DNA of 64,000 nt, taken from the NCBI GenBank assembly GCA_900696465.1, contig CAADGE010000035.1, forward strand, positions 62,001 through 126,000, given 5' to 3'. The DNA is from an uncultured Planctomycetota bacterium. GTDB taxonomy: Bacteria > Planctomycetota > Phycisphaerae > UBA1845 > UTPLA1. Positions within the stretch are counted from its first letter, which is position 1. Every line of letters begins with the position of its first letter. The translations under genes were made by a program, and so were the position numbers. Below, piece after piece: positions 29,207 through 42,986 of this stretch. Under the pieces are notes generated by a model that worked only from the letters and a program-made list of their open reading frames with translations, made no database searches and was not told where the DNA came from.

Positions 29207-30733
29207 CTATCCCCGCGTTGTCACGAACTCTCCGGCATGGCTGTCGGGGTGCCAGCGGGAGAGGATCATTCGCTGCTGTGTATAGAACATAATCCCTTCT
29301 TTGCCCTGGATGTGCAGGTCGCCGAAGAAACTGCCCTTGACGCCGGTGAAGGGGAACATCGCCATCGGGGCCGGCACGCCGACATTCACGCCGATCATCC
29401 CCGCGCCGGCGCGATGCTTGAACTCGCGGGCCGCGTGGCCGTCGCGCGTGTAGATGACTGCCCCGTTGCCGTAGGGGCTTTTGTTCGTCAGCTCGATGGC
29501 TTCGTCAAGCGATGCCGCTCTGGTGACACTGAGCACCGGGCCGAACAGCTCCGCCTGCGAGACGTGCATCTGCGGGGCGACGTGGTCAAAGACCGTTGGG
29601 CCGAGATAAAAGCCGTTCGGCGCGTCGGGCACCTTCACCCCGCGGCCGTCGCGAGCGAGCTTGGCGCCTTCCTTGACGCCCTTGTCGATGTTCGTCAGCA
29701 AACTGTCGAGATGTTGCTTCGTCACCACCGGCCCCATCTGCGCGTCGCTGCCGATGTCCGTGCGGCCGACTTTGAGCTTGGCGGCGGTGGCCGAGAGCTT
29801 CTCCACGAGCGGATCGCCTGCACTGCCGATGGCCACCGCCAGAGAGCCAGCCATGCAGCGCTGGCCCGAGCAACCGAAGGCCGACGCTTGCAATGCCCCG
29901 ACGGCCTTGTCCATGTCCGCATCGGGCAAGACGAGGATGTGATTCTTCGCCCCGCCGTTTGCCTGGCAGCGTTTGCCGTGCTTGATGGAGGTCTCGTAGA
30001 TGTATTTCGCGATCGGCGTGCTGCCGACGAAACTGACCGCCTGCACATGCGGATGCGTGAGCAGGGCGTCCACTGCTTCCTTGTCGCCGTGGACGACGTT
30101 GAAGACGCCCGGCGGCAGGCCGGCCTCGGCAAACAGCTCCGCGAGTCGCATGGCCGAGAGCGGCACCTTCTCGCTGGGCTTGAGCACGAACGTATTACCG
30201 CAGGTGATGGCGATCGGGGCCATCCACAGCGGGACCATGAAGGGAAAGTTGAACGGCGTGATGCCGACGCAGACGCCCAGCGGGTGGAAATATGTCTCGC
30301 AGTCGACATCGACGGCGATGTTGTGCATCGTGTCGCCCATCGTGAGCGTGGGAATGCTGCAGGCGTACTCGACCATCTCAATGCCGCGGCGTACCGAGCC
30401 GACGGACTCTTCGTGCGTCTTGCCGTGCTCGAGCGAGATCAGCCGAGCGATCGACTCAGCGTTTTTCTCCAGCAGGGTGACGAGGCGGAACATGACGCGG
30501 GCGCGCTCGACGACCGGGGTATCCCGCCACGCCGGGAAAGCGGCGTGCGCATTCTTGACGGCGGCATCGACCTCTGCGGCCGTGCAAAAAGGGCACTCGG
30601 CGATCTGCTCACCAATCGACGGGTTATAAACCGGCCCGCGGCGGGTCGATTTCGAATCGACAAACTCGCCGCCCACAAACATGCGGACAGGCTTCACGGC
30701 GGATTTGGAGGGAGCGGTAGCGGTCACGGACAT
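29207..30733 (-). CDS. mmsA: CoA-acylating methylmalonate-semialdehyde dehydrogenase
   Basis: 508 residues. Oxidises methylmalonate semialdehyde or malonate semialdehyde to propionyl-CoA or acetyl-CoA with NAD and CoA (valine, pyrimidine/beta-alanine or inositol breakdown). Aldehyde-dehydrogenase fold with NAD-binding ITPFNFPFMVPLWM and FVGSTPIAKYIY, and the catalytic cysteine in CSGQRCMA at about 284. The family hallmark is a non-canonical site: the general-base glutamate is replaced (QANGGAKNHILVLPDAD). GGAGG lies 7 nt before the ATG and TATACT (-10-like, 30765-30760) about 26 nt before it. Nearby beta-ureidopropionase-like 31499-32368 hints at reductive pyrimidine breakdown through beta-alanine. 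Confidence 0.93.
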   Translation of the reverse strand: MSVTATAPSKSAVKPVRMFVGGEFVDSKSTRRGPVYNPSIGEQIAECPFCTAAEVDAAVKNAHAAFPAWRDTPVVERARVMFRLVTLLEKNAESIARLISLEHGKTHEESVGSVRRGIEMVEYACSIPTLTMGDTMHNIAVDVDCETYFHPLGVCVGITPFNFPFMVPLWMAPIAITCGNTFVLKPSEKVPLSAMRLAELFAEAGLPPGVFNVVHGDKEAVDALLTHPHVQAVSFVGSTPIAKYIYETSIKHGKRCQANGGAKNHILVLPDADMDKAVGALQASAFGCSGQRCMAGSLAVAIGSAGDPLVEKLSATAAKLKVGRTDIGSDAQMGPVVTKQHLDSLLTNIDKGVKEGAKLARDGRGVKVPDAPNGFYLGPTVFDHVAPQMHVSQAELFGPVLSVTRAASLDEAIELTNKSPYGNGAVIYTRDGHAAREFKHRAGAGMIGVNVGVPAPMAMFPFTGVKGSFFGDLHIQGKEGIMFYTQQRMILSRWHPDSHAGEFVTTRG

Positions 30734-31498: not shown

Positions 31499-32368
31499 AT
31501 GCCACGCATCATTCGAGGCGGTCTCATTCAGGCAACGCTTTCCGAGCCGGGCAATGCGCCGATTGAGAAGATCAAGAAATCCATGATCGACAAGCATGTC
31601 GGCCTGATCGAACGGGCGGCCAAGGAAGGCGCACAGGTCGTCTGCCTGCAGGAGCTTTTCTACGGGCCGTACTTCTGCTGCGACCAGGACACCAAGTGGT
31701 ACAGCATGGTCGAGAAAATCCCCGACGGGCCGACGACCAAGCTCATGTGCGACCTGGCGAAGAAGCTCAAGCTCGTTCTCGTCGTACCCATGTACGAGGA
31801 AGACCTGCCCGGCGTCTATTACAACTCCGCATCGGTCATCAACGCGGATGGTCAGTACCTCGGCAAGTACCGCAAGATGCACATCCCCCACGTCGCCCCC
31901 GGCTTCTGGGAGAAGTTTTTCTTCCGCCCCGGCAACCTGGGCTACCCCGTCTTCGACACCGCCGTCGGCAAGGTCGGCGTCTATATCTGTTACGACCGGC
32001 ACTTCCCCGATGGCGCGCGATGTCTGGGGCTCAATGGTGCGGAGATCGTCTTCAACCCGTCGGCGACCGTCGCGGGGCTCAGCGAATATCTCTGGAAGCT
32101 TGAGCAGCCGGCGCACGCGGTCGCGAATCAATACTTCGTCGGCGCGATCAACCGGCCGGGCTACGAAGAGCCGTGGCGCATGGGCGAGTTCTACGGCCAG
32201 AGCTACTTCTGCGACCCGCGCGGGCAGATCATCGCCCAGGGCAAACGGCTGGAAGACGACGTGGTTGTCGCCGACCTGAACCTCGACATGATCCGCGAGG
32301 TGCGAAACACCTGGCAATTCTTCCGCGACCGCCGACCTGAGAGCTACGGCGAGATTGTGCGGTTGTAG
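31499..32368 (+). CDS. Carbon-nitrogen hydrolase (beta-ureidopropionase / N-carbamoyl amidase-like)
   Basis: 289 residues. Nitrilase-superfamily amidase with the complete triad: Glu52 in QELFYGPYFC, Lys126 in YRKMHIPH and Cys164 in VYICYDRHFPDG. The closest types I recognise are beta-ureidopropionase (N-carbamoyl-beta-alanine to beta-alanine) and N-carbamoylputrescine amidohydrolase; GLNGAEIVFNPSATVAGLSEYLWKL is shared by that branch. AAGGAG lies 7-8 nt before the ATG. Next to mmsA, a beta-alanine route is attractive: beta-alanine, malonate semialdehyde, acetyl-CoA. No dihydropyrimidinase or dehydrogenase gene is present in the window, so this is inference. Confidence 0.88.
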   Translation: MPRIIRGGLIQATLSEPGNAPIEKIKKSMIDKHVGLIERAAKEGAQVVCLQELFYGPYFCCDQDTKWYSMVEKIPDGPTTKLMCDLAKKLKLVLVVPMYEEDLPGVYYNSASVINADGQYLGKYRKMHIPHVAPGFWEKFFFRPGNLGYPVFDTAVGKVGVYICYDRHFPDGARCLGLNGAEIVFNPSATVAGLSEYLWKLEQPAHAVANQYFVGAINRPGYEEPWRMGEFYGQSYFCDPRGQIIAQGKRLEDDVVVADLNLDMIREVRNTWQFFRDRRPESYGEIVRL

Positions 32369-32634: not shown

Positions 32635-34278
32635 ATGAATACCGAAATGCTGCTGGGAGATGAGGCAGTGGGGCTGGCGGCGCTGCACAGCGGGATATCC
32701 GGCGCCTTCTCCTACCCCGGAACACCAGCGACGGAGATCTTCGAGTTCATCGAAACCCGCCGCGACCGGGATGGGCGGGCCGCCGAAGTTCATGCGACCT
32801 GGTCGGCCAATGAGAAGGTCGCCTACGAGGAAGCCCTCGGCATGTCCTTTGTCGGCAGGCGGGCCATCGTTTCCATGAAGCATGTCGGTCTGAACGTCGC
32901 CCTCGATCCGTTCATGAGTTCGGCATTGACCGGGGCGCGCGGCGGATTTGTTCTCGCCGTGGCCGACGATCCCGGCATGCACTCTTCGCAGAACGAGCAG
33001 GACTCCCGTTACCTCGGTGATTTCGCGCGGATACCGGTCTTCGAGCCCTCGAATCAACAGGAAGCGTACGACATGACCCGTGAGGCGTTCGAGATGTCCG
33101 AACGCTGGGGGCTGCCGATCATGCTGCGACTCGTCACGCGGCTGGCGCACAGCCGGTCGGCGGTGCACATCGGCACGTACGATCACGGACCGGGCCAACA
33201 CGGACTCGAACGCGGCGACGGCGCGAAACTGGCCCCGATCGACTGGCGGCAGTGGACGCTGCTTCCACCTAATGCGCGGCAGCGGTATCGCCGTCTGCTC
33301 GAGATGCAGACGGTCCTGCGGGAGTACTCGGAGCACTCGTCCTTCAATCGACTCGAACTCAGCGGCCCGCGCGGCATCATTGCCTGCGGTCTGGCGCACA
33401 ATTACGTACGCGAGGCGATCGGAGATGACCCGCGCTACAGCGTGCTGAAAATCTGTACCTATCCGCCGCCGGTTCGGCTCCTCCGCGAACTGCTCGATCA
33501 CTGTGAGGAGGTGCTGGTGGTCGAAGAGGGGTATCCGTATCTCGAACGCCTGTTGACCGGCCTGCTCGGAATGCCCGGCAAGCGCATCAGTGGCAAGCTC
33601 AGCGGTGCCCTTCCGCCGGATGGGGAGATGACCGTGGATCGGGTCCGTGCGGGCCTGGGGCTTCCGGCCAACCTGCAAGAGCGTACTGGCGTGCCGGAAG
33701 CCCTGCCGGCGCGGCCACCACGGTTGTGTGACGGGTGCCCGCATTGTGACACTTTCGGCGCGATGATGGCCGCGCTGGAGGGGTACCCCTCGGCCTACCT
33801 GTTGAGCGACATCGGCTGCTATTCCCTCGGCGCGCTTCCGCCCTACAACGCCGTGCAGGCCTGCGTGGACATGGGCGCCTCCATCTCGATGGCTCACGGT
33901 GCCGCCAAGGCGGGCGCCTGGCCGGTGGTTTGCACGATCGGCGATTCAACCTTTACGCACTCAGGCATGACCGGACTGATCGGCGCGGCGCGTGAGAACG
34001 CCGACATGACGGTCATCATCCTCGACAATGCGACCGTGGCCATGACCGGCGGGCAGGAGGCCCTGGCCACGGGCGATGAATTGCTCAAGCTGCTGGCCGG
34101 ACTGGGCGTGCCGCCGGAGCATACCGTCCGGATTGATCCGCTGCCCAAGCATCATGCGCACAACATGGCCGTGCTACGGCGCGAGATTGAGTATCACGGT
34201 CTGTCGGTGATTGTCGCGCATCGGGCCTGCATCCATCACGTGCGTCGGACCAAGGCCGGCGCCTATGCAACGGCCTGA
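32635..34278 (+). CDS. iorA: Indolepyruvate:ferredoxin oxidoreductase alpha-like subunit lacking the ferredoxin domain
   Basis: 547 residues from ATG 32635 (GGAG 8 nt upstream; the frame is open to 32551). Domains: pyrimidine-binding domain with YPGTPATEIFEFIE (about 1-240), a transketolase-C-like domain (VLVVEEGYPYLERLL, about 270-330), and a TPP domain (365-547) with IGCYSLGALPPYNAVQAC, IGDSTFTHSGMTGL and ILDNATVAMTGGQE. This is the IorA family that oxidatively decarboxylates aryl-pyruvates to aryl-acyl-CoA. The normal C-terminal 2[4Fe-4S] ferredoxin domain (about 60-80 residues, two CxxCxxCxxxC motifs) is missing; the protein ends in RRTKAGAYATA. The usual CPGCPHR is CDGCPHC here, adding a cysteine. 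Next gene 22 nt on. Confidence 0.82.
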   Translation: MNTEMLLGDEAVGLAALHSGISGAFSYPGTPATEIFEFIETRRDRDGRAAEVHATWSANEKVAYEEALGMSFVGRRAIVSMKHVGLNVALDPFMSSALTGARGGFVLAVADDPGMHSSQNEQDSRYLGDFARIPVFEPSNQQEAYDMTREAFEMSERWGLPIMLRLVTRLAHSRSAVHIGTYDHGPGQHGLERGDGAKLAPIDWRQWTLLPPNARQRYRRLLEMQTVLREYSEHSSFNRLELSGPRGIIACGLAHNYVREAIGDDPRYSVLKICTYPPPVRLLRELLDHCEEVLVVEEGYPYLERLLTGLLGMPGKRISGKLSGALPPDGEMTVDRVRAGLGLPANLQERTGVPEALPARPPRLCDGCPHCDTFGAMMAALEGYPSAYLLSDIGCYSLGALPPYNAVQACVDMGASISMAHGAAKAGAWPVVCTIGDSTFTHSGMTGLIGAARENADMTVIILDNATVAMTGGQEALATGDELLKLLAGLGVPPEHTVRIDPLPKHHAHNMAVLRREIEYHGLSVIVAHRACIHHVRRTKAGAYATA

Positions 34279-34300: not shown

Positions 34301-37300
34301 ATGGAACTCAATGTGATTCTTGCAGGGGTTGGTGGTCAGGGCATTCTGACGACAGCGGCGGCGCTGACCATGGCGGCGATACGCCGCGGGCTATCCGTCA
34401 AGCAGGCCGAGGTGCACGGCATGTCGCAGCGAGGCGGTGCGGTGCAGTCCCACCTGCGCATCGCGGATCATCCGCTCTACAGCGATCTGATTCCGCACGG
34501 TCGGGCCGATATGATTCTCGCCGTCGAGCCGCTCGAAGCCCTGCGCTATGTCGATGGCCTCTGCGGTGACGGCGTCATCATCTCCAACACGTCGCCCGTG
34601 GTGAACATCCCGAATTACGGTAATGTTGATGACTACCTTCAGCGAATCAGCCGACGACCCAATCACATCCTGATTGACGCCAGCAACCTGGCGGGTATCG
34701 CTGGTTCGACGCGCGCCGTCAACATGGTCATGCTCGGCGCATGCTCCATCGAGCTGGACTGGGATCCGGCCGAATACGACGCAGTTATCGCCGAGATGTT
34801 TGCCGCCAAGGGACCGAAGCTAATTGCCGTGAATCAGCGGGCCTTCGCACTGGGTCGCCGCGCGGCTCGGATGTACCGCGAGTTGCTCGCTCGCGGTGCG
34901 GATGCGATGGCCGCCCGGCAGTGGATAGCCGATCATCCCAACGAAGAGCCGGATACTCTGGCGCAGGTCGAAGGATTGCCGTCGCGCGTACTGGAGCCGT
35001 CGGAAGCCCTCACGCCTGAGCAGACGGCGCGGATCGGTTCGCTGCTCGATGCCGTCTGGTCGCAGGAGCGTCGACAGCTTTATGAGCACGAGGTCTATCA
35101 GCTTCTTGAGGTGGCAGGAGCCATTTCCCCGCCGCGGCATTTCTTTGTCCACCGTGGCGAACAGGTAACGGAGCAGATGCTCAATGCCCTGCCCGGCGAT
35201 CGTGTCGTGCTCAAGATTGTCTCACCGACCATCGTGCATAAGAGCGATGCCCAGGCGGTCGTCTTTGTCACGAAAGACTACGGCATTGTGCCTGGCGAGG
35301 TGGACCAGCTCATTGCTCGCCAGCAGTCGACCGGGGCACGGGTGGACGGTGTGCTCGTCGTCGAGCGCGTTGAGTACGATCGATCGCACATCGGCGGTGA
35401 GTTATTCGTCGGTATCCGGCAGACGCGGGAGTTCGGCCCGGTCATTGCGGCGGGTCTCGGTGGTGTCGATACCGAATACCTTGCCGCGCGGCTGCGGCCC
35501 GGTATCGCCGTCGCCAAGGCCCTTGCCACACAGACCAGCGCCCGGGAGTTCCTCGATCTCTTCCGGAAGACGGCGGCGTATGAGGTGCTGACCGGACGAG
35601 TCCGTGGTCATCGACGGATTGTTTCCGACGGCCAGTTGCTTCGGTGCTTCGCTGCATTCATCGCCACGGCCCGGGAGTTCTGCCTGCCGCTCGAAGATGC
35701 GGAGGCGCCCCGGTTGGTTGAGATGGAAGTGAATCCCTTTGCATTCCGACAGATGACGATGGTGCCGCTGGATGGTCGCGGGCGACTGGGCAGATCGGCT
35801 CGGTGCACGCTGCCTCGGCCGGCCCACAAGTTGCGCTGCCTGCTGGAACCGAGGTCGATTGCCGTGGTCGGTGTCTCCGCGAAGCGGGAGAACTTCGGCC
35901 GGATCATTCTGAACAACATCCGACATTGCGGCTTCCCGACGGAACATCTCTATGTCATCAAGGATGATGTGCAGGAGATTGACGGTATGCCGTGCGTAGC
36001 GGCGCCGTCCGCAGCGCCGGAGCCGATTGACTTATTGATCGTTTCCGCCGCAGTTGAGGATGTGCCCGGCTTCGTGGGAGATGTCATCAACAGCGGGCGT
36101 GTGTCGTCGGCGATTCTGATCCCCGGTGGATTCGGCGAGACCGACGGCACGCAGAAGGTCTCGCAGACGGTCGGCGAACTCATTGAGAAGTCCCGCAGGA
36201 GAACCGACGGCGGTCCGATTTTTCTGGGCGGCAACTGTCTCGGCGTGCGGTCGCGACCGGGACGATACGACACCTTCTTCATACATGACAAGAAACTCGA
36301 TCCGCGGCGATCGGTCCCCGCGAAGCGGCTGGCCCTCATCTGCCAGAGCGGCGCGTTCATCGTGTCGCGGCTTTCGAATCTGCCAACGCTCGACCCGACG
36401 CTGGCGATCTCGCTGGGCAATCAGTCCGACCTGACGGTATCTGATCTGATGGCCGAGGCCGCACAACGGGACGATCTGGATGTGATCGGCGTCTATATGG
36501 AGGGATTTCGGGACGGCGATGGTCTTGAGTTCGTTCGCGCGGTACGCGCGGCGCGGGACGCAGGCAAGGTGATCGTCTTCTACAAGGCCGGCCGGACCGA
36601 AGCGGGCCGTAGTGCCACCGCCGGGCACACCGCTTCCATTGCCGGCGACTACGATGTCTGCGATGCGGCCGTCGGCGCGGCCGGCGCGATCGTGGTGGAC
36701 ACATTCAAGGAGTTCGAGCAGGTTCTCGAGCTGGCAGTCTGTCTGCACAACAAACCGATCGGCGGCCGGCGCATCGGAGCGATCAGCAACGCCGGCTTTG
36801 AGGCCGTGGGGATGGCGGACGCGACGATCGGCACGCGGTATCGCGTGGAACTGCCGGCGCTGGCCCCTGACACGACCCGGCGGCTTTCTGCGGTGCTGGC
36901 GAAGCACCGGCTCGATTCGCTGGTCAATATCCGCAATCCTCTGGATGTCACACCGATGGCATCGGACGAGGCGTATGAGGATGGGGCCCGCGTGCTCTTC
37001 GAGGCCGACGAGATCGATGCCGTGCTGGTGTCGATGGTTCCGCTGACACCGGCGATGCTCACGGCTGCGGACGAGATCGGCGATCCGCGCTCGATCGCCT
37101 GTCGTCTGGTGGCACTGCGGGAGACTTACAAAAAGCCATTGATCGTGGTGATAGATTCCGGCTCGCCGTTTGACGCACTGGCAGACGCACTGCGGAGCGG
37201 CAACATCCCGGTCCTGCGGTCCTGCGATCAGGCGATTCGCTCACTGGGACGCTACTTGTGTCACCGTGCAGCGTCGCATCGGTGCGACGCTGTCGCTCCA

Positions 37301-37342
37301 GCAGCTGAGCAACTGAACGCAGAGGCCGTCGGCGCGGTCTGA
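34301..37342 (+). CDS. IorB-type 2-oxoacid oxidoreductase gamma subunit fused to ADP-forming acyl-CoA synthetase
   Basis: 1,013 residues from ATG 34301, where the IorB family begins. Residues 1-190: pyruvate/ketoisovalerate oxidoreductase gamma domain (ILAGVGGQGILTTAAALTM, VKQAEVHGMSQRGGAVQSHL). 260-490: ATP-grasp domain of ADP-forming acetyl-CoA synthetase (VVLKIVSPTIVHKSDAQAVV). 513-620: CoA-binding Rossmann domain (PRSIAVVGVSAKRENFGRII). 676-815: succinyl-CoA-ligase-like domain with the predicted phospho-histidine His776 in AGHTASIAGDYD. 820-1000: second ligase subdomain. The synthetase is ordered beta-alpha, opposite to most one-piece ACD enzymes. With IorA it could turn aryl-pyruvate into acyl-CoA and then acid plus ATP. 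The frame is continuous through all junctions, so the fusion is not an artefact of two stops. Confidence 0.85.
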   Translation: MELNVILAGVGGQGILTTAAALTMAAIRRGLSVKQAEVHGMSQRGGAVQSHLRIADHPLYSDLIPHGRADMILAVEPLEALRYVDGLCGDGVIISNTSPVVNIPNYGNVDDYLQRISRRPNHILIDASNLAGIAGSTRAVNMVMLGACSIELDWDPAEYDAVIAEMFAAKGPKLIAVNQRAFALGRRAARMYRELLARGADAMAARQWIADHPNEEPDTLAQVEGLPSRVLEPSEALTPEQTARIGSLLDAVWSQERRQLYEHEVYQLLEVAGAISPPRHFFVHRGEQVTEQMLNALPGDRVVLKIVSPTIVHKSDAQAVVFVTKDYGIVPGEVDQLIARQQSTGARVDGVLVVERVEYDRSHIGGELFVGIRQTREFGPVIAAGLGGVDTEYLAARLRPGIAVAKALATQTSAREFLDLFRKTAAYEVLTGRVRGHRRIVSDGQLLRCFAAFIATAREFCLPLEDAEAPRLVEMEVNPFAFRQMTMVPLDGRGRLGRSARCTLPRPAHKLRCLLEPRSIAVVGVSAKRENFGRIILNNIRHCGFPTEHLYVIKDDVQEIDGMPCVAAPSAAPEPIDLLIVSAAVEDVPGFVGDVINSGRVSSAILIPGGFGETDGTQKVSQTVGELIEKSRRRTDGGPIFLGGNCLGVRSRPGRYDTFFIHDKKLDPRRSVPAKRLALICQSGAFIVSRLSNLPTLDPTLAISLGNQSDLTVSDLMAEAAQRDDLDVIGVYMEGFRDGDGLEFVRAVRAARDAGKVIVFYKAGRTEAGRSATAGHTASIAGDYDVCDAAVGAAGAIVVDTFKEFEQVLELAVCLHNKPIGGRRIGAISNAGFEAVGMADATIGTRYRVELPALAPDTTRRLSAVLAKHRLDSLVNIRNPLDVTPMASDEAYEDGARVLFEADEIDAVLVSMVPLTPAMLTAADEIGDPRSIACRLVALRETYKKPLIVVIDSGSPFDALADALRSGNIPVLRSCDQAIRSLGRYLCHRAASHRCDAVAPAAEQLNAEAVGAV

Positions 37343-39881: not shown

Positions 39882-42800
39882 TTACTTCTCTTTAAGTTCG
39901 AGCGCGCCGCGCCAGTCGTCGTCCGGCGGGAACGTCTTGAATTCCTGACAGGCGTCGATGTAGCGACTGGCGCCGGCGTCGTCGAACCGTCGGGCGAGCA
40001 TCCGCGTGAAGTGGACGATGCATTCGTCCCAGCGACGCTGCTTGTAGAGTTCGACGCCGTGCTCGAAGCGCTCGATGTATTCGCGCTGCTCGGGCGTCAG
40101 CGTACCTTTTCGGCCGACGACTTCGTACACGGGAATGGTCTGTGCCTTTCCCTTGACCTGCAATTCGGCCAGGTAGCGAAACTCAAATGCATCGCGCACA
40201 ACTTCGCGCGTCGGCCCGCTGACCAGAATCGAGGTGCCGAATACTTTGTTGGCCGGCTCGAGTCGAGCGGCGAGGTTCACCACATCACCAATCACGGTGT
40301 AATCGGCCTTGATTTCGGAACCCATATCGCCGTTCATCGCCATGCCGGTGGCCAGGCCGATCCGCATCTGCAAGGCGTCGAAGATGCGGGCGGCAGGATC
40401 GCCGCGGCGCTCTTGCTTGAGCTTTTCGAGTTCCTCCAGGCCGATGAGCGATGCTTCAACGGCGGCGCGGGCATGTTCCGGCATCGGATCGACGCTGGCA
40501 TTGAAGAATGCCATGATGCCGTCGCCCATGAACTTGTTGAGCAGGCCGCGCTGATTCCAGATGACCTGACTCATGCGATGCAGGTAAGTGTTGAGTACGC
40601 GCTGGATGAGTTCGGGGTCTTCCGCTTCCGTGAGGGTGGTAAAGCCCTTGAGATCCGAAAAATAGCAGGTGACCTCGCGGGTCTGAACGGTCTTGAAAAC
40701 TTGCGCGGCCTGCGGATTTTCGGCGATCCGCGCCGCAATGGCCGGCGAGGTGTATTGGCCAAGCTGCTTGGCAAACAGTCGCCGCTCGCGTTCGGCCGTT
40801 AGCTGGCGGAAAAGGGTGACGAAGGCCCAGGTAAGAAACATGCAGACCAGCGGAGCAGCCAGCGCCGCCCAGACATCCATTCGCTCGAAGAGCACTTCGC
40901 AGTTGAACAGCAGATACGCGGCGAGCAGACCGATCGTGGCGGTCAGAGCCCATCGAGGCGGCTGCGTGCTGGTGAGGAAGCTGACGATCGCGCCGGCTGC
41001 CAGGCAGATGAGCACGCCGACCCAGGCGGGCGCGATGCGGATCAGCCGATCCTGCAGGATCGCATTGAGCACATGCGCATGACACATGACACCGTTGGTG
41101 CGTGGATCGATGGGCGTGGTGACGATGTCGCCCTGTGCCGTGGCGGCAAAGCCGAGGAAGACGAACTTGCCCGCCAGATGATCGTTGAGTTCCTGCTTTG
41201 TCCGATCGATCATGGCCTGCATGGATTCGTTCGCACGGCGGCGCGCCGAAAGCTGTTCGTCGATGATCTTCTTCGCTGACCGGAAGCGCCTGGCATCAGC
41301 GGCGAGCTTTGGATCGGCATCGATCTCTACCTGCGGTATTTCAGCGAATTCCCGGCAAGTCAGCTCGATGGTGTCGATGGCCTGGGATTCAATGGCTTCG
41401 ATCTCGTTGAGCAGTTTCGCCAGGCGATCTTCCATGGCTCGTCGATCTTCGGGAGTGCCGGTTGACATCAGTCGGGCGAGGCGGAGTTCCTGCTCAAGCT
41501 TTACCTGTTCTCCGACCAGTCGTAGGTAATGTGCATCGGCGGTGTGGGTTTCAGGACCGGACTCCGCCCCCTCTCGCGATTCGACGCTAAACTCGCCCTT
41601 GGCGACCGTGACCAGATCGGCCAGCAGGTACTTCATGGAAACGTCGTTGTCCCGGCGCTGCCGGCGTGCGTCGACGATGCTCATCAGCTTGGCGGCCGAC
41701 AGGTGCGGCATGTCCTTGCCCTCGCGCCATCGCGGGGCCGTACCACTCCAGTGGATGACCATCGCTCCGTCGCGATCCAGCGGCAACCGTCGCGGCTGAT
41801 CTTTGTTCGAGGTCAGCAGCAGATCCGATCCGTCCAGCGCAAGCCCGGAGAGGTTCAAGCCAAGTGTGTGGATGGCGGCTGACAGGCCGAGGTGGGGGAG
41901 TACGCCTTGCTCGACATCAATCAGCACGGGAACCCGTCGCACCGAGCCGTCGATATCGGGGCGGAAGTTGACGGCGGCGATGTCCATCGCGGCCTCTGCC
42001 AGAGGCGCCAGCAGCGGCGCGACGTTTTCCGCACGGGGCAGTCGCGCCATCGCCTCCGCCTTTGCCGGGTACAGTGACTTCAGCAGGATTTCAAGCGCCT
42101 GCTGACGATTGATCGCCATCCACAGGTCGCGGCGGTCGGCCGTGCGGCGACCGCTTTCCTCACCGAGGACTGCATCGAGAATCTGTTCGGGGTCTGGCTT
42201 GTGTCCGTTTTCGAGCAGGGTCCTCACGCGTCGTCGGGCCGCTTCGGTTTTGGCTCCGGCCAGGATGCGCAGGACCTCGTCTGTCGGCGCGGCCAGCCGG
42301 TCGGCCAGCTCGTGTTCGTTCAGTGTGAAATTCGAGATGAGCAAACGAGTGGCCCGCTCGCGCAGCGCCAGCCGGTGGACGGTCTCGACATCTTCAGTGT
42401 GTTCAGTCTCGTCGAGTGCCATGACGGCGTCATCGGTGCTCGCATCCGGATGGCGGTCGAAGTAGTCGTACAGCTGTCGACTCAGTGGGAGCGGATGTCC
42501 GGGGAGTCGGATATCCAGTTGCGTTGACATGATCACGCAACCGGCGCGGCGAATGGCCTCGGCCAGCTCAAGATCACCGTAAAGGAGGTTGGCCTCGGAA
42601 AGCTCCCCGACGATTTCAACCTTCTCGCCGGGCAATGCATCAAGACGCGGATCGGCCAGTTGCAGCTTTTCGGGCTCGGAGAAGAGGAAATCGACGAGGA
42701 TCATTTCCGGGTTGAATTCGGCAATCGTGCCGATCAGGTCGGCCATCTGGCTTCGCGGCCAGGGCCACCGACCGATCCGGTCGAGAGAGCCGTCGTCGAT

Positions 42801-42986
42801 ATCGACGTGAACAATTCGCGGGTCGGCCGGCAGGGTGTTGAAGTGCCGCATTCGCCAGTCGAAGGACATGAGTTCGAGCCGTGGCTCGTTATCGCGCGCG
42901 AAGAAAAAGACGGCTGTTCCCGCCGCAATGGCGAGACCCAGGAGAAAACCTTGCAATTGTTGAAGCCGTCGGCGGTTTATTAGCAT
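39882..42986 (-). CDS. CHASE2-domain class III adenylate/guanylate cyclase
   Basis: 1,034 residues. One N-terminal membrane helix (about 12-30), a large extracytoplasmic CHASE2 region (about 32-645) with the typical SFDWRMRHFNTLPADPRIVHVDIDD start, then three or so membrane helices (about 650-745), then a class III cyclase domain. Metal-binding aspartates lie in CYFSDLKGFT (about 776) and NKFMGDGIMAFF (about 817); TVIGDVVNLAARLE near 895 is the transition-state block. A short helical TPR-like tail ends the protein. The CHASE2 region is about twice the usual length because of helical inserts around 150-330 and a coiled coil around 490-560. Likely makes cAMP in response to an external signal. 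Stands alone. Confidence 0.9.
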   Translation of the reverse strand: MLINRRRLQQLQGFLLGLAIAAGTAVFFFARDNEPRLELMSFDWRMRHFNTLPADPRIVHVDIDDGSLDRIGRWPWPRSQMADLIGTIAEFNPEMILVDFLFSEPEKLQLADPRLDALPGEKVEIVGELSEANLLYGDLELAEAIRRAGCVIMSTQLDIRLPGHPLPLSRQLYDYFDRHPDASTDDAVMALDETEHTEDVETVHRLALRERATRLLISNFTLNEHELADRLAAPTDEVLRILAGAKTEAARRRVRTLLENGHKPDPEQILDAVLGEESGRRTADRRDLWMAINRQQALEILLKSLYPAKAEAMARLPRAENVAPLLAPLAEAAMDIAAVNFRPDIDGSVRRVPVLIDVEQGVLPHLGLSAAIHTLGLNLSGLALDGSDLLLTSNKDQPRRLPLDRDGAMVIHWSGTAPRWREGKDMPHLSAAKLMSIVDARRQRRDNDVSMKYLLADLVTVAKGEFSVESREGAESGPETHTADAHYLRLVGEQVKLEQELRLARLMSTGTPEDRRAMEDRLAKLLNEIEAIESQAIDTIELTCREFAEIPQVEIDADPKLAADARRFRSAKKIIDEQLSARRRANESMQAMIDRTKQELNDHLAGKFVFLGFAATAQGDIVTTPIDPRTNGVMCHAHVLNAILQDRLIRIAPAWVGVLICLAAGAIVSFLTSTQPPRWALTATIGLLAAYLLFNCEVLFERMDVWAALAAPLVCMFLTWAFVTLFRQLTAERERRLFAKQLGQYTSPAIAARIAENPQAAQVFKTVQTREVTCYFSDLKGFTTLTEAEDPELIQRVLNTYLHRMSQVIWNQRGLLNKFMGDGIMAFFNASVDPMPEHARAAVEASLIGLEELEKLKQERRGDPAARIFDALQMRIGLATGMAMNGDMGSEIKADYTVIGDVVNLAARLEPANKVFGTSILVSGPTREVVRDAFEFRYLAELQVKGKAQTIPVYEVVGRKGTLTPEQREYIERFEHGVELYKQRRWDECIVHFTRMLARRFDDAGASRYIDACQEFKTFPPDDDWRGALELKEK

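Follow-up and report, generated by a model that had tools for sequence, protein, structure and literature searches.

A fused IorB–acyl-CoA synthetase (ADP-forming) and its ferredoxin-domain-free IorA partner in Phycisphaerae: a candidate two-protein route from 2-oxoacids to ATP

The window analyzed here, a 64,000-nucleotide stretch of a contig from an uncultured Phycisphaerae bacterium (CAADGE010000035.1, positions 62,001 to 126,000 of the forward strand), carries a gene for the alpha subunit (IorA) of an indolepyruvate oxidoreductase-like enzyme (IOR), followed by a gene in which the beta subunit (IorB) is joined to an ADP-forming acyl-CoA synthetase (ACD). The two genes are separated by 22 bases, from the end of the IorA gene at 34278 to the start of the downstream fusion at 34301. 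The features are as follows.

32635..34278, + strand: IorA-like alpha subunit, 547 aa, with TPP domains and proximal cluster, without C-terminal ferredoxin domain (TIGR03336; POR_N, TPP_enzyme_C)
33727..34230, + strand: IorA Cys365, Cys368, Cys395 and Cys532, presumed proximal [4Fe-4S] ligands (invariant in 54 clade members; common to the canonical paralogues L060 and L061)
34301..37342, + strand: IorB-ACD fusion gene (open frame; 54 named loci with the same fusion)
34301..34885, + strand: IorB / POR gamma domain, residues 1-195, P-loop-like GVGGQGI at 9-15 (Pfam POR; NF005324; OFOR gamma fold match, Z ~21)
34886..35035, + strand: variable linker, residues 196-245, partly helical (low conservation in alignment A1; pLDDT dip at 222-225)
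35036..35791, + strand: putative ACD beta part, ATP-grasp, residues 246-497, with His313 (ATP-grasp_5; H313/K314 invariant; 1wr2 fold match, Z 23.9)
35822..37279, + strand: putative ACD alpha part, CoA-binding and two ligase subdomains, residues 508-993 (CoA_binding_2, Succ_CoA_lig; ACD alpha subunit fold match, Z ~31)
36626..36628, + strand: His776 in GHTAS, swinging-loop phospho-histidine (aligned with the loop His of PDB 9y43, 8wzu and 4xyl; invariant)

The fusion frame was translated without a stop into 1013 amino acids, and its start was assigned to the ATG at 34301, where the homologue alignments begin, and not to the upstream TTG at 34211. Pfam matches, each above its curated cut-off, were obtained for POR (residues 11-186), ATP-grasp_5 (254-493), CoA_binding_2 (518-650) and Succ_CoA_lig (676-811). 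Both the stop-free translation and this domain search agree with the original prediction, made from the letters of the DNA, of a single uninterrupted frame from IorB into an ACD. The two ligase domains named there were recovered by different means: the first has the single Succ_CoA_lig match, while the second (approximately residues 820-990), lacking a Pfam match of its own, is supported by the structural match of residues 507-995 to ACD alpha subunits. Among the NCBIfam models, the first 191 residues scored 234.6 bits with NF005324 (indolepyruvate oxidoreductase beta), above its cut-off of 222; with TIGR03334, the beta subunit scored 149.1, below its cut-off of 205.8. The ACD part stayed below every cut-off of the substrate-named equivalogs for acetate, 3-hydroxypropionate and 4-hydroxybutyrate (scores and cut-offs: TIGR02717, 208.7 and 567; NF045494, 203 and 1200; NF045492, 189 and 1300; NF045493, 162 and 1300).

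The structure predicted for the fusion has a mean pLDDT of 80 and a pTM of 0.76. Modelled residues 1-203 match OFOR gamma subunits (Z ~21), and modelled residues 242-993 match the Nitrosopumilus 3-hydroxypropionyl-CoA synthetase (PDB 9y43) over 666 residues with a Z of 27.7 at 3.6 Å; in the model, the ACD part has the ACD fold. H776 and H313 align with the phospho-relay histidines of solved ACDs (the loop His and the ATP-grasp His, respectively), and judged by sequence, residues 242-993 are a complete ADP-forming acyl-CoA synthetase with both phospho-histidine positions. The fused proteins are invariant at both of these histidines and at K305, E476, N478 and E734. His776, which had been placed at the phospho-histidine position before any alignment to the swinging-loop histidine of solved ACDs, is kept in all 54 fused proteins and 26 unfused relatives.

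Residues 4-541 of the partner IorA match positions 3-540 of the 595-position TIGR03336 model with 487.0 bits and thus do not reach its cut-off of 650.9. The C-terminal ferredoxin domain with two [4Fe-4S] sites, a point overlooked in the original prediction, is absent from every IorA of the clade, in which a tail of 2-40 aa follows the core; in contrast, an 8-Cys ferredoxin domain was found in the IorA of L060, L061 and L153. At eight loci where the domain is absent (L063, L077, L086, L088, L093, L096, L130 and L135), short cysteine-rich tails of the CxxCG or CGCxCG-like kind were seen at the IorA C-terminus. A second, separate IorA group without the ferredoxin domain occurs in a sister family with a short IorB of ~150-170 aa (L148 to L152). 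For L148, L149 and L152, its neighbours in the cluster are two ligases of the PaaK type, one paired ACT-domain gene and one thioesterase-like gene, the family models having been run on the genes of L148 and L149 and the other genes called by sequence likeness.

The same in-frame IorB-ACD fusion was found at 54 of 80 named GTDB loci by a scan of genome contigs, including L096, whose stop falls at the C-terminal end. Sixty relatives were searched as well, and the frame was present in 17 further genomes (54-71% identity, alignment A1), with which the 80 loci overlap in part. If the fusion were not genuine, other genomes could be expected to show a frameshift or a stop in the stretch from residue 190 to residue 260; these loci were inspected for one, and 54 of them keep the frame open. 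In a class-wide sample, a homologue was present in 46 of 397 genomes, which indicates a patchy distribution. Most fused loci are labelled Phycisphaerae; the others include Armatimonadota (L105, L106, L109, L129), Myxococcota or 'Deltaproteobacteria' (L087, L098, L107, L113, L117), one 'Acidobacteriota' bin and one 'Cyanobacteria' bin, the last of which falls inside the Phycisphaerales group of the ACD tree and is probably mislabelled. For pairs of close relatives, whole-gene dN/dS was 0.06-0.32, with low values in each of the three parts, IorB, linker and ACD; the fusion is under purifying selection. In viral contigs scanned with the IorB part, no virus-borne copies were found.

IorA lies directly upstream of the fusion nearly everywhere the contig extends far enough. 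The exceptions are L123, where none was found, and L095, where a partial match starting only at IorA residue 230 precedes an intact fusion, possibly by frameshift or truncation. Clade IorA, told apart from other homologues by identity (59-100% against at most 45%), was present in 20 of 61 sampled genomes, and all 20 also carry the ACD; the genome studied here has only one IorA of this kind. Three of the 61 (G008, G019, G040) have the ACD without clade IorA. No other conserved neighbours were found across the loci, and a substrate clue from conserved operon partners was rejected, IorA being the sole conserved partner. On the upstream side, the window encodes a methylmalonate-semialdehyde dehydrogenase (29207-30733, − strand), which scores over cut-off, as well as a carbon-nitrogen hydrolase (31499-32368, + strand), for which N-carbamoylputrescine amidase is the nearest family, though below cut-off; neither recurs beside IorA and the fusion at other loci.

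All fused forms fall inside one set of 60 rows of the ACD tree, with an SH-aLRT of 100. Six rows of this set were not scored as fused, of which two (L111, L122) are truncated where their contigs end and four (L103, L108, L110, L118) resemble later splits. Re-inspection of five loci confirmed L096 as fused and gave three neighbouring but separate genes for IorA, IorB and ACD in the bins L110, L116, L120 and L128; the last three of these bins, two of Acidobacteriota (L116, L128) and one of Phycisphaerae (L120), lie outside the fused set. Within the clade, the genes are split in L110 and G024, and G008, G019 and G040 keep the ACD alone, so the fusion is not obligatory. The simplest reading of this history would be an operon first, then one fusion and some later splits, which we can only infer since the root is a midpoint root and the deepest forks are weakly supported. 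Among unfused beta-alpha ACD relatives, L133 and L139 show a tandem pair of copies, and four of Desulfobulbales (L124, L127, L138, L140) appear, as read from their sequences, near folD-, formate-THF ligase- and metF-like genes.

With moderate confidence, we regard IorA and the fusion as one two-protein machine for the oxidative decarboxylation of a 2-oxoacid, most likely an arylpyruvate, with ATP formation. IorA, with TPP and one [4Fe-4S] cluster, and the IorB domain would convert the 2-oxoacid, most likely an arylpyruvate derived from aromatic amino acids, into the acyl-CoA, and the electrons would pass from the proximal cluster of IorA to a soluble ferredoxin. Acyl-CoA, ADP and Pi would then be turned into acid, CoA and ATP, via His776 and His313, by the ACD part, which is tethered to IorB. 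The net reaction would be 2-oxoacid + ADP + Pi + oxidised ferredoxin to acid + CO2 + ATP + reduced ferredoxin. The domain make-up, the catalytic residues, the conserved pairing and the loss of the ferredoxin domain are directly visible in sequence and model; the substrate class, the direction, the electron acceptor and a faster hand-over of the CoA-bound product through the fusion are what we infer. IorB is the counterpart of domain III, the gamma domain of PFOR, which holds a CoA-binding P-loop (PMC8091585), and a ligase attached to this subunit would make a hand-over of acyl-CoA attractive. It seems doubtful to us that the link goes as far as a covalent machine for substrate-level phosphorylation, with acyl-CoA and CoA passing back and forth between the two sites without being released and with ATP synthesis coupled directly to the oxidation of the 2-oxoacid.

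Arylpyruvate is a plausible substrate, and aryl substrates are suggested by four lines of evidence: the IOR family itself; the P. furiosus enzyme ACS2, which acts on aryl-CoAs and has been placed in the IOR route (PMC3942289); the arylacetate kinases and ligases with which IOR genes are associated in clostridia (PMC13285125); and the PaaK-type phenylacetate-CoA ligases that adjoin the IOR genes of sister families and point to aryl-CoA as a common product. The genome also encodes RnfC and two heme-copper oxidases, which make a re-oxidation of ferredoxin possible, and a prephenate dehydratase, so that salvage of aryl acids for phenylalanine would not be needed; all three fit the catabolic direction. 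Three observations count against this explanation, namely the IorA score below the IOR equivalog cut-off, so that the substrate may differ, the three genomes with ACD and no clade IorA, in which the ACD can have a role of its own, and the Wood-Ljungdahl-like genes, as read from sequence, near unfused Desulfobulbales relatives of the ACD.

The same IorA score leads to the alternative that the 2-oxoacids are non-aromatic, for instance branched-chain or of the pyruvate type, and that the ACD is specific for acetate or branched acids, with the ATP coupling unchanged. We consider this unlikely, though worth keeping in view. The Wood-Ljungdahl-like genes just mentioned would fit acetate rather than arylacetate; however, the best-scoring models of both IorA and IorB are those of indolepyruvate oxidoreductase, with IorB above a cut-off, and it is PaaK that adjoins the sister-family IORs. 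In principle, the ACD and OFOR reactions are reversible, and the ACD could activate arylacetates with ATP for a reductive carboxylation by the IOR part to arylpyruvates for amino acid synthesis, a direction proposed for methanogens and Bacteroides. In the sister families, IOR is paired with PaaK ligases, AMP-forming enzymes that favour synthesis (PMC13285125). Yet an ADP-forming, readily reversible ligase is better suited to ATP harvest than an AMP-forming one, and the prephenate dehydratase speaks against a synthetic role as well, which makes this direction improbable. A dual supply of phenylacetyl-CoA for aerobic ring cleavage by the paa pathway, from phenylpyruvate by the IOR part and from phenylacetate by the ACD part, is highly improbable: the genome itself has two PaaA/PaaC-family genes, but such genes occur in 11 of 20 genomes with the pair (9 lack them) and in 23 of 41 others, and the link to aerobic phenylacetate degradation was rejected for want of any association across the 61 genomes. 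Finally, an assembly or frameshift artefact, conceivable since the sources are nearly all MAGs and a few relatives have separate genes, has a negligible chance, and a frameshift or missed stop was rejected in view of the 54 in-frame loci, found under several phylum labels and on single-contig chromosomes too, and of purifying selection on IorB, linker and ACD.

Returning to the oxidative, ATP-forming reading, its single steps have known counterparts. IorAB of Pyrococcus and others likewise has TPP domains and four proximal-cluster cysteines in its alpha subunit and a POR domain in its beta subunit; here, however, IorA lacks the C-terminal two-cluster ferredoxin domain and IorB is joined to an ACD. 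PDB 9y43, also ADP-forming, shares the beta-alpha order with the fusion, but its identity is 23%, it has no IorB domain, and its expected substrate differs. P. furiosus ACS2 is proposed to act downstream of IOR in the same step, aryl-CoA to acid and ATP, with separate alpha and beta subunits unattached to IOR (PMC3942289). In Peptostreptococcales, IOR genes adjoin an ADP-forming ligase (PF13607), a functional pairing by gene neighbourhood; these Firmicutes genes are separate, and no ligase fusion is mentioned in the available part of the source (PMC13285125). The OFOR of Sulfolobus tokodaii also has a single proximal [4Fe-4S] cluster and no intramolecular ferredoxin domain, whereas its subunit split and substrates differ and it has no ligase (PMC5020499). 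A soluble ferredoxin was modelled in the vacant pocket next to its sole cluster, and the enzyme is described as relatively oxygen-tolerant (PMC5020499).

The interpretation first put forward for this locus has stood in part, with respect to the fusion, its intact motifs, the IorA pairing and the fit to 2-oxoacid oxidation with ATP formation; the direct channelling that it also proposed is more speculative. Its beta-then-alpha order is indeed less usual, but not new, as it is shared by PDB 9y43 and by NF045494, the model of an Archaeoglobus acetate-CoA ligase, and domain shuffling is a known trait of ACDs (PMC11494057). The original remark that no enzyme of this build is known to have been described agrees with our search of the openly accessible literature (subscription papers being outside its scope), in which no published description of an IorB-ACD fusion was found; the adjacency of IOR and ADP-forming ligase, however, is already published (PMC13285125). 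New is the fusion, an unusual yet widespread build, while the pairing was known and the chemistry is expected. Two core steps of amino acid fermentation, carried out by separate enzymes in archaea and clostridia, would here be linked in one bacterial chain, in at least one case in the same genome as oxygen reductases. Among uncultured Phycisphaerae, Armatimonadota and Myxococcota-type MAGs, the fusion could serve as a ready genetic marker of 2-oxoacid oxidation that yields ATP, and it could be a natural test case for the channelling of CoA intermediates. For the paired loss of the ferredoxin domain, Sulfolobus offers a comparison through its single-cluster OFORs, which are relatively oxygen-tolerant. 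Downstream of the fusion, the window also encodes a protein of 1034 aa that combines a CHASE2 sensor with an adenylate/guanylate cyclase domain (39882-42986, − strand).
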